From Oceanivirga miroungae (GTDB lineage Bacteria; Fusobacteriota; Fusobacteriia; Fusobacteriales; Leptotrichiaceae), in assembly GCF_902505095.1 (NCBI RefSeq), contig NZ_CABWIB010000001.1, positions 62,001 to 126,000 of the forward strand: 64,000 nt of DNA, in the 5' to 3' direction. The notes beneath the pieces were generated by a model. It did not search any database and was not told where the DNA came from. It worked only from the letters and a program-made list of their open reading frames with translations. Positions within the stretch are counted from its first letter, which is position 1, and each line of letters begins with the position of its first letter. The position numbers and the translations under genes are program-made. Positions 5,334 through 47,383 of the stretch are shown here, one piece after another.

Positions 5334-6391
5334 TAAATATCCCTATCTAAGATTATATACTTTGCATTTTTCACATCGATTTTTTCTGTAGATGTAAAAA
5401 AACATTGTGTATTTTCTTTATTTAAATAATCTAACACACTATATTTTCTAAATTCATCAAAATATGCACTTATATCATCAAATAAATATATTGCCTTTTT
5501 GTTATATTTTCTTTTTATATATTCCCCTTGTGCTAATTTTATTGCCAGTAGTATTGATTTTTTCTCTCCTGTTGAAGCGTATGATTTTGAAAGTTTATTA
5601 TCTAGTAAAATACTAAAATCATCTTTTTGAGGACCACTTATTGAATATCCATAAATTCTTTCTTTTTCTTCTCTTTGTAATAAATAGTTTTTGAAAAATT
5701 TTTTCATTTCATTTTTATCTTCAATAAATGCCATAAATGAGTTATATACTATCTCAACACTTTTTTCTCCAAGAAATAGATTTTGATATATTTCATTTAC
5801 AATTTTAGATAATTCTTTTATATACCTATATTTTATTACCATTAATTCTACTGATAAATCTATAAATTTTTCTGTATATACTAAAAAAATTTCTGAATTC
5901 ATATTATTTTCTTTTATTAACTTGTTTCTAATTTTTAAAATTTTTTGAAAATCTAGTAAAAGCTTTAAATAGTTCGCATCTACTTGTGAAATTTCGTAGT
6001 TAAAAACTCTTCTTCTAACATCAGGACTTCCTGCTATTAGTTCTACATCTTCTGGAGAAAAAGATATGGCTAAAATATTTCCTAAATATTCTTTATACTG
6101 TATTTTTTCACCATTTTTATAGAATTCTCTTTTTTCTTTATTAAGTCTTATACTATATTTTTCACCGTCTTTTATTCCAAAAACTATAGCTTCTGTTTCC
6201 TTATTTTTTATTTGTTCTATTACTTTTCTTGTTCTAAAACTTTTACCACTTGCTAAAAAATACACAGATTCTATCAAACTAGTTTTCCCCTGTGCATTTT
6301 TTCCGTATATTAAATTAAAGTTTTTACTAAATTCATATTCTTTATTTTCTAAGTTTCTAAAATTGCTAAGTAATATTTTTTCTATATACAT
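5333..6391 (-). CDS. recF: DNA replication and repair protein RecF
   Basis: SMC-like ATPase of 352 residues that, with RecO and RecR, loads RecA at single-strand gaps. Walker A is GKNAQGKTS near residue 30, with the conserved N-terminus of RecF before it; the ABC signature STGEKKSILLAIKLAQ and Walker B YLFDDISAYFD lie in the C-terminal third. The ATG shares one base with the stop of the upstream S4 gene. The order dnaA-S4-recF is the standard origin cluster except that dnaN is missing. Confidence 0.95.
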   Translation of the reverse strand: MYIEKILLSNFRNLENKEYEFSKNFNLIYGKNAQGKTSLIESVYFLASGKSFRTRKVIEQIKNKETEAIVFGIKDGEKYSIRLNKEKREFYKNGEKIQYKEYLGNILAISFSPEDVELIAGSPDVRRRVFNYEISQVDANYLKLLLDFQKILKIRNKLIKENNMNSEIFLVYTEKFIDLSVELMVIKYRYIKELSKIVNEIYQNLFLGEKSVEIVYNSFMAFIEDKNEMKKFFKNYLLQREEKERIYGYSISGPQKDDFSILLDNKLSKSYASTGEKKSILLAIKLAQGEYIKRKYNKKAIYLFDDISAYFDEFRKYSVLDYLNKENTQCFFTSTEKIDVKNAKYIILDRDI

Positions 6392-8046: not shown

Positions 8047-8865
8047 ATTTTTGATTTTTCCACTTTTCCACATTTTAAAAGCTTTATAAAGCCTTTAGTT
8101 TATTTGAAAAACGGTGTTTTCCACAATTTTTATTACTTTTGCACATTTGCCTATAATAACTGATTTAATTATGCAAAATTTTCTTTTTCCACAATGAAAA
8201 AATTTTTTTATCCACAAAATATTTTAAAGTCTATACCTTGAATTTATTGACTTTTTTCTATTTTTCAACAAGATCATTCTATTTTCCACAAATTATAAAT
8301 TAGCATTCCTTATTTTTTTATCCATTTTTGTTCTTTTAATTTTTCAACAAAATTTTATTCTATTTTTATCACTAAAACCATATATTTTTTGCAGTTTTCA
8401 ACAAAATTCAAAAGTTTTACACATTCTCTGTATCCCTTTATTTTCAACACTTTTATTTATTTTTGCACATTCAATATTTTTCAATATGTGGAAAAGTTTT
8501 CAACATTTAATAAACATGGTATTAAGGTAGTTTTCAACAAAGATTTTATACTTTTTCCCTTTATTTTACTGCCTTTACACTTTTACACATCACTTAATAT
8601 TACTATTACTTAAATTAATGAATATATATATATATATGTACCTATCTCTACTTTTTTTTGATTCTAACTCAAATTATATCTTTTAATTTTATCTACTAAT
8701 AAATTCTAAATAAATATTTTATATCTAGCTTATATATATAATTTATAAATTAATTTTCCCTATAATTGAATCAGTTATACAGTCAGTTATTTATTTTTTT
8801 GTTCAATTTCATGTTGATTTTACTAGGTTTATAACTTTTTTTAGTTTCAGTTACAAATTCAGTTG
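8047..8865. other. Replication origin region (oriC)
   Basis: Non-coding DNA upstream of dnaA. A run of nonamers matching TTTTNNACA or TTATCCACA lies in one orientation: TTTTCCACA at 8064, 8117, 8185 and 8282; TTATCCACA (canonical) at 8208; TTTTCAACA at 8262, 8341, 8395, 8441, 8497 and 8531; TTTTGCACA at 8137 and 8461; TTTTACACA at 8415 and 8581; one inverted TGTGGAAAA at 8487. Between 8600 and 8800 follows an almost pure AT stretch including (TA)n, a candidate unwinding element. Genes diverge here: minus strand to the left, mostly plus to the right, as expected at an origin. Confidence 0.85.
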
Positions 8866-8894
8866 TTGACAACTTATATTTTTTGTGGTAATAT
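8866..8894 (+). promoter_or_regulatory. Strong promoter of the cysteine-rich peptide gene
   Basis: TTGACA (8866-8871), 17-base spacer, TAATAT (8889-8894): near-consensus sigma-70. It sits about 40 bases before the small ORF's start. Confidence 0.85.
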
Positions 8895-8934
8895 TGGTTA
8901 TAAAGAAAAAACGAAACAATTAGGAGGAATTATT

Positions 8935-9009
8935 ATGAAAAAGAATTGTACTTGTAAAAAATCTGTTTGTTGTAAAGATAAAGGTTGTAACTGTACTTGT
9001 TGCGAATAA
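8935..9009 (+). CDS. Cysteine-rich 24-residue peptide, metallothionein-like
   Basis: The ORF encodes 24 residues with eight cysteines (5, 7, 12, 13, 18, 20, 22, 23), seven lysines or acidic residues around them and no hydrophobic segment. The spacing CxC-x4-CC-x4-CxCxCC is like a single metal-cluster domain. A perfect TAGGAGGA ribosome binding site lies six bases before the ATG. It has its own near-consensus promoter (8866-8894) and terminator (9021-9048), so it is a monocistronic, probably highly expressed unit next to oriC. The known small-metallothionein families are longer; binding of Zn, Cu or Cd, or a redox buffer role, is inference. Confidence 0.75.
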   Translation: MKKNCTCKKSVCCKDKGCNCTCCE

Positions 9010-9020
9010 GAAATTTATTT

Positions 9021-9048
9021 AAAGATACTGTAAAAGGTATCTTTTTTT
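9021..9048 (+). terminator. Rho-independent terminator of the cysteine-rich peptide gene
   Basis: AAAGATAC (9021-9028) pairs with GTATCTTT (9037-9044) and is followed by a T tract, 12 bases after the stop codon. Confidence 0.88.
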
Positions 9049-9191: not shown

Positions 9192-10352
9192 ATGAATATT
9201 TTAGTTTTAAATAGTGGAAGTTCATCAATTAAATATCAATTGATAGATACTGCTAAAAAAGAAGTTTTAATAAAAGGAAAATTTGAAAAAATTGGATACT
9301 GTGATTCTATGTATTCTATTAAAGATAAAATAACAGGAGAAAATGTAAAAGAAGAAAAAAAAGAATTTTTAACACATAAACTAGCACTAGAATTTATATT
9401 ATCTAAAATAGATCTTAATTTAATTGATGCAATAGGTCACAGAGTTGTTCATGGGGGAGAAAAATTTTGTAAAGCCACTGTAATGACAAAAGAATTAGTA
9501 TCAGAATTAGAAAAAATAAATGATTTAGCACCACTACATAATCCAGCAAATATAAAAGGAATAAAGCTTTGTATGGAACTAATGCCTGATAAAAAAAATG
9601 TAGCGGTTTTTGATACAAGTTTTCATAATACAATAGAAAAGCCTAAATATATATATCCAATACCATATAAATTTTATGAAAAATATGGAATTAGAAAATA
9701 TGGTTTTCATGGAACTAGTGTTAAATATGTAAGTCAAGTTGTAAATGGTTTATTAAATAAAGAAGATAGTAAAATAATAGTATGCCACCTAGGAAATGGT
9801 GCTAGTATAACTGCTGTTAGAAATAATAAGTCAGTAGATACTTCAATGGGATTTACACCATTATCAGGAATTCCTATGGGGACTCGTTGTGGAAGTATAG
9901 ATCCATCTATAGTTAAGTATTTATTTGAAAAGGGATATAATACACAAGAATTATTTGAAATTTTAAATGAAGAATCAGGAATGAAGGGAATTTGTGGAAT
10001 ATCAGATAATAGAGAAATGACAGAAGCTATGCAAAATAAAGATAAAATGGCTGAACTTGCTTTTAATGTTTATTCTAATAGAGTTTCTACTTTTATAGGT
10101 TCATATTTTGTAGAATTAGAAGGAGTAGATGCAATTGTATTTACCGGAGGAATTGGAGAAAATTCTAAAGAAACAAGAAAAAGAATTTGTTCTAAATTAA
10201 AAGCATTAAATATTCATTTAGATGAAGAAAAAAACAATAGTATAAAAGAAGATGGACTTATATCTTGCGAAGATTCAAGCGTTAAGTTATATATGATAAA
10301 AACTGATGAAGAAATGATGATAGCAAAAGATACAGAAGAAATATTAATATAA
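9192..10352 (+). CDS. ackA: Acetate kinase
   Basis: Transfers phosphate from acetyl-phosphate to ADP, giving acetate and ATP in fermentation. The 386-residue protein has the ASKHA-fold signatures NSGSSSIKYQ at the N-terminus, DTSFH and GFHGTS in the middle, CHLGNGAS, SMGFTPLSGIPMGTRCGSID and FTGGIGENS. The ATG at 9192 is chosen because GGAGA lies nine bases upstream; a TTG two codons earlier is too close to it. Phosphotransacetylase is not adjacent. It has its own putative promoter and terminator, so it is monocistronic. Confidence 0.97.
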   Translation: MNILVLNSGSSSIKYQLIDTAKKEVLIKGKFEKIGYCDSMYSIKDKITGENVKEEKKEFLTHKLALEFILSKIDLNLIDAIGHRVVHGGEKFCKATVMTKELVSELEKINDLAPLHNPANIKGIKLCMELMPDKKNVAVFDTSFHNTIEKPKYIYPIPYKFYEKYGIRKYGFHGTSVKYVSQVVNGLLNKEDSKIIVCHLGNGASITAVRNNKSVDTSMGFTPLSGIPMGTRCGSIDPSIVKYLFEKGYNTQELFEILNEESGMKGICGISDNREMTEAMQNKDKMAELAFNVYSNRVSTFIGSYFVELEGVDAIVFTGGIGENSKETRKRICSKLKALNIHLDEEKNNSIKEDGLISCEDSSVKLYMIKTDEEMMIAKDTEEILI

Positions 10353-46759: not shown

Positions 46760-47383
46760 ATGTTATTAGGAAAAAAAGTAGGAATGACACAAATATTTGA
46801 AAACGAAAAGTTAATACCGGTTACAGTTATAGAAGTGCAACCAAACTTTGTTACTCAAATAAAGACAGTAGAAAAAGAAGGATATAATGCAGTAGCATTA
46901 TCAGCTTTCGAAAAAAGAGAAAAATTAGTTAATAAACCTGAAATGGGTGTTTTCAAAAAAGCAGGAATTAGTCCTAAAAGAAAAACTCACGAATTTCATG
47001 TTGATTTAGTTGATTCATATGAATTAGGTCAAGAAATAAATGTATCTTCATTAGAAGGTGTAGAATTTGTTGATATTCAAGGTATCTCAAAAGGTAAAGG
47101 TACTGCAGGGGTTATGAAAAGACATAACTTCGGAGGAAATAGAGCTACTCACGGGGTTTCAAGAAACCACAGATTAGGAGGATCTAATGCAGGGGGAGCA
47201 GCATCTAACTCTAACGTACCAAAAGGTAAGAGAATGGCTGGAAGATTAGGAAATGAAAATGTTACAGTTCAAAATCTTAGATTAGTAAAAGCAGATGTTG
47301 AAAACAACTTAATTTTAGTAAAAGGATCAGTTCCTGGGGCTAAAAAGGGATATCTAGTAATTAAAAAATCAATTAAAAAATAA
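46760..47383 (+). CDS. rplC: 50S ribosomal protein L3
   Basis: 207 residues with MLLGKKVGMTQIFE at the N-terminus and the peptidyl-transferase-facing loop GGNRATHGVSRNHRLGGSN. AGGAGG site. Second gene of the S10 cluster. Confidence 0.97.
   Translation: MLLGKKVGMTQIFENEKLIPVTVIEVQPNFVTQIKTVEKEGYNAVALSAFEKREKLVNKPEMGVFKKAGISPKRKTHEFHVDLVDSYELGQEINVSSLEGVEFVDIQGISKGKGTAGVMKRHNFGGNRATHGVSRNHRLGGSNAGGAASNSNVPKGKRMAGRLGNENVTVQNLRLVKADVENNLILVKGSVPGAKKGYLVIKKSIKK

Follow-up and report, generated by a model that had tools for sequence, protein, structure and literature searches.

The 183 bases at 8866-9048 of the 64,000-base window analysed here (bases 62001-126000 of a 1,341,221-base contig in the 1.36-Mb genome of Oceanivirga miroungae) look like a genuine gene, expressed independently, whose product is a peptide of 24 residues, one third of them cysteine. 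We suggest, with a probability of about one half, that this is a real monocistronic gene encoding a cytosolic, metallothionein-like metal buffer. The gene anatomy and the improbability of such a frame arising by chance are observed; transcription and translation are judged from that anatomy, and the peptide is probably translated. If it is, metal binding would on balance be its main role, where we infer both the binding and the identity of the metal.

The open reading frame, MKKNCTCKKSVCCKDKGCNCTCCE, runs on the forward strand from an ATG at 8935 through 24 codons to a stop codon ending at 9009. Reading these bases confirmed the arrangement described in the first-pass annotation, eight cysteines in the pattern CxC-x4-CC-x4-CxCxCC, which form two CxC-type clusters and two CC pairs. 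Also borne out was its description of a peptide that is one-third cysteine (8 of 24 residues, 33%) and lacks a signal or membrane segment; the remaining residues are rich in lysine. In the long ORFs of the window, by comparison, cysteine accounts for 0.6% of residues and for at most 2.9% in any one. Seven of the eight cysteine codons are TGT, as expected from the usage in those long ORFs (85 TGT to 10 TGC). Markov simulations of order 3 and order 5 (2 x 10.8 Mb) yielded no ORF with at least 8 cysteines and at least 25% cysteine, and none of 20,000 random versions of a 590-nt stretch contained an ORF with 8 cysteines; by these estimates, which are based on window statistics and simulated sequence, chance is an unlikely source of the cysteine-rich frame.

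Every element that had been named as fitting within the 183 bases was found there on the forward strand. The near-consensus promoter is present as a sigma-70-type sequence, TTGACA-17-TAATAT, at 8866-8894, with the -35 element at 8866-8871, a spacer of 17 nt and the -10 element, preceded by TG, at 8889-8894; it matches the consensus at 10 of 12 positions. Its support is moderate because the stretch is AT-rich and matches of this kind are frequent in it (15 found in the region against 17.3 expected, not significant alone). A palindrome without strand, AGTTGT-TG-ACAACT at 8861-8874, overlaps the -35 element and may be an operator. It is the sole perfect copy in the genome, and it reveals no regulon, since copies with two mismatches are no commoner than those of a control pattern (120 vs 142). 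The ribosome-binding site, TAGGAGGA at 8921-8928, lies as described just upstream of the ATG, its AGGAGG ending 7 nt before the start codon, and belongs to the strongest class of such sites. Of the 18 further AGGAGG-N4-9-ATG sites that the window contains, 17 open ordinary genes, many encoding ribosomal proteins and elongation factors; the lone exception precedes a 20-codon frame at 47187. The terminator, too, is real, though G+C-poor: a hairpin of nine pairs (arms 9021-9029 and 9036-9044) with a 6-nt loop, followed by a T run reaching 9048. Its energy of -8.0 to -8.5 kcal/mol ranks 12th among the 907 T-runs in the window, and an automated terminator scan overlooked it because that scan demands three G-C pairs. 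The view that this is a self-contained small gene, of a kind that gene finders would skip, is thus well supported by the succession of promoter, ribosome-binding site, ORF and terminator.

The peptide gene has dnaA upstream on the other strand and ackA downstream. As named from their translations, an mfd-like gene, a recF-like gene, an S4-domain gene and dnaA all lie on the reverse strand, and between dnaA and the peptide unit is an AT-rich intergenic stretch with many repeats resembling DnaA boxes; directly downstream of the unit come ackA, on the forward strand, and then genes for a PTS-like membrane protein and a panE-like protein, both on the reverse strand. The proposed position beside oriC proved right, as the sign of the GC skew turns near 8-14 kb of the window and TTTTCCACA/TTTTCAACA-like repeats are packed into the stretch upstream of dnaA. 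The further point that the gene occupies the highest-dosage site of the chromosome is left without support, because its oriC-side position is shared with no relative seen. Two 21-base copies of a TCAGTTA-type double repeat, 81% alike and 76 bases apart (8771-8867), separate the DnaA-box-like stretch from the promoter of the peptide gene. Elsewhere on the same contig, outside the window at about 1299664-1301591, an extended tandem array repeats every 66 bases and contains AATTTTACACAACT some 30 times. The genome has two acetate-kinase-like genes, the oriC-proximal one at 9192-10352 of the window being 53% identical to the other (C1:478079-479266).

The first-pass annotation had looked to conservation in relatives, and none could be shown. 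Protein searches in the genus and family, a DNA search for the eight-cysteine pattern with relaxed spacing in 98 Fusobacteriota genomes (97 and this one) and a profile search of the same set gave no convincing relative of the peptide, so that conservation of the cysteines was found in none of the 97 other genomes; the match of the profile (A1) to the peptide's own genome is circular, the peptide being part of it. Most matches to the eight-cysteine pattern in the phylum are runs of CTG/TTG-type repeats. The same pattern also found a cysteine-rich stretch, CDCGTGCCLGCCAGCGCNCC, in another Fusobacteriota genome (L011, G080:C11:3315-3374). Weak protein matches in two genomes (G012 and G016, E about 0.1) were rejected as chance, there being no short cysteine-rich ORF with an ATG, GTG or TTG start at either place, and a third (G014, E 0.7) has a stop codon inside. 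Nor is there a paralogue in the same genome: an 82% DNA match at C1:550109 falls within a long helicase-like ORF. In the congener, a distant one (dnaA 55% and ackA 71% identical), the dnaA intergenic stretch leads into the panE-like and PTS-like genes and ackA lies elsewhere; neither its dnaA/oriC region nor its ackA locus holds such a cysteine-rich ORF, and none of the family's further dnaA and ackA loci that were examined has a counterpart led by a Shine-Dalgarno sequence. Plasmids, phages, PDB, Pfam and NCBIfam gave no match, with no Pfam or NCBIfam family at E up to 10, a search for which HMMER is weak at 24 residues; distant relatives could be missed for the same reason, as the search tools are weak at this length. 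At present sampling the peptide thus appears to be a single-copy orphan, its place beside oriC known from this genome only.

This apparent lack of conservation, together with the frequency of promoter matches in the region, is what favours a chance ORF in an RNA made beside oriC, either a short transcript that goes untranslated or a regulatory RNA. We consider such an RNA unlikely, as simulations yield no such ORF, a strong ribosome site stands at the proper distance from the ATG, and the unit shows neither excess RNA structure (z -0.57) nor an Rfam match; a structured RNA is accordingly unsupported, and the coding reading fits better. The terminator directly 3' of a cysteine-rich ORF could also suggest a cysteine-sensing leader peptide that governs read-through into ackA by attenuation, the more so as ackA starts 143 nt past the terminator with just weak promoter matches between. 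With no strong ackA promoter seen past the terminator, some read-through into ackA may occur. Yet pairing of upstream sequence with the 5' arm of the terminator was matched or beaten by 299 of 300 shuffles, and the hairpin stays paired in 95-100% of the ensemble calculated at every upstream length tried. With an upstream transcript unable to compete with the terminator, the leader peptide is a weak candidate, and an alternate-pairing attenuator found no support, no competing antiterminator pairing being seen. Since, moreover, ackA of the congener lies elsewhere without such a leader and nothing evident links acetate kinase to cysteine, we regard attenuation as improbable.

Two other readings accept that the peptide is made and differ on what it does. 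Eight thiols among 24 residues could serve an anaerobe that meets transient air by buffering its thiol or redox state or by storing cysteine, metal binding being incidental; Sneathia amnii, of the same family Leptotrichiaceae, is described as a catalase-lacking anaerobe able to withstand short contact with air (PMC3535699). This reading seems to us quite unlikely, given that CxC and CC pairs grouped in this way are characteristic of metal thiolate clusters and that no thiol-redox gene is adjacent. A small cysteine-rich peptide also recalls the precursors of SCIFF-like or other radical-SAM-modified RiPPs. That origin is very improbable: the peptide has no NCBIfam match, no radical SAM gene adjoins it, and the SPASM-type form is largely refuted because this genome lacks its radical SAM domain (TIGR04085), which 10 of the 14 control genomes contain.

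On the metal-buffer reading, the monocistronic gene would yield a cytosolic peptide of 24 residues whose eight thiolates would cluster metal ions that are soft or borderline in character (Cu(I), Zn(II) or Cd(II)) and which would thus act as a minimal metallothionein-like buffer. In its make-up (CxC and CC pairs, a third cysteine, a lysine-rich remainder) the peptide resembles metallothioneins, and being small, high in cysteine in CxC and CC pairs and free of any other domain, it has the sequence features of metallothioneins in the broad sense. The proposal of a metal- or redox-buffering peptide therefore stands in part. Its composition and analogues in other phyla make such a role plausible; against it are the lack of conservation and of a metal gene neighbourhood, there being no metal gene or metal regulator adjacent to the peptide gene. 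The genome as a whole has no CsoR, one clear ArsR-type protein, itself devoid of cysteine, and only one HMA-domain protein that we found. A literature search for Sneathia together with metallothionein found no paper. Like the curated bacterial metallothioneins (SmtA/BmtA type and MymT), the peptide is small, cysteine-rich and, as predicted, cytosolic; those proteins are about twice as long, and unlike them it has no Pfam or NCBIfam match. Closer in size are the fungal copper metallothioneins of the Neurospora crassa and Agaricus bisporus type, with 26 residues and 7 cysteines, which share with it the proportion of about one-third cysteine, the CxC pairs and the absence of another domain (PMC4755600). 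Their pattern, X2-CxC-X5-CxC-X3-CxC-X2-C-X3 (PMC4755600), has none of the CC pairs seen in the window peptide. The fungal proteins are also eukaryotic and their metal binding is demonstrated, whereas the window peptide is known from its sequence, and there is no sign of common descent.

Analogues in other phyla came from scanning GTDB contigs for the spacing C.C....CC....C.C preceded by GGAG-N4-12-ATG-N3-30, which gave at least 21 in-frame ORFs. Among the matches listed, nine peptides of 30-32 residues (L062, L086, L091, L101, L115, L127, L130, L133 and L134), mostly from Proteobacteria, form a clear family, MxxxKCKCDCKxDxCCxxxTCxCCKxSCCCx, with 11 invariant cysteines; the two members tested have no significant Pfam or NCBIfam match, and a tenth member (L353) is on a contig of a viral collection. 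In five of the nine listed contig members (L086, L091, L115, L133 and L134) the gene directly upstream, with the motif NAMCLCxCCSVDxS, is of ArsR type as read from its translation, not by a model match. Two others (L062 and L130) do not follow an ArsR-type gene, the distance from L130 to a CobW-like gene being some 870 bases, and for L101 and L127 the upstream sequence spans just 100-140 bases or so, too little to judge. A different 26-residue peptide with 11 cysteines, MSDDKCCGCHCCSNGCCGGSGCSCCG (L167, about position 5843, read as on the forward strand), directly follows an ArsR-type gene whose motif is DLCVCEL, so that 6 of the 10 peptides of 26-32 residues among the matches listed (five of the nine family members and L167) stand directly behind such regulators.

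The window peptide shares with the 30-32-residue ArsR-linked peptides its core spacing C.C....CC....C.C, its size and a solitary short ORF preceded by a ribosome site, and random placement of its eight cysteines reproduces that core in 0.2% of cases. The likeness says nothing on descent, as the scan itself selected on that cysteine spacing. The 31-residue pattern, C-x-C-x-C-x4-CC-x4-C-x-CC-x3-CCC, has 11 invariant cysteines where the window peptide has 8, with neither the CxCxC start nor the CC-x3-CCC end; an ArsR-type gene directly precedes five of the nine listed members, whereas the window gene has dnaA and ackA for neighbours; and that family sits in other phyla, with no demonstrable kinship. 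What the analogues show is only that peptides of such size and spacing occur in apparently metal- or metalloid-regulated operons, and the 30-32-residue peptides are possibly an unrecognised micro-metallothionein family.

We offer, more tentatively, the idea that the window gene encodes a lineage-specific, perhaps newly arisen bacterial metallothionein, one of several micro-metallothioneins that evolved independently and were skipped for their length. If the metallothionein reading is true, 24 residues would undercut the 26-residue fungal metallothioneins once taken as the shortest, and if the peptide is translated it would be an easy test case for the minimum length of a working metal buffer. 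The recurrence of an uncurated 31-residue cysteine-rich peptide beside ArsR-type regulators suggests that micro-metallothioneins may be widely missed. For Oceanivirga miroungae itself, translation of the peptide would mean that a reduced genome carries a gene shorter than annotation usually admits.
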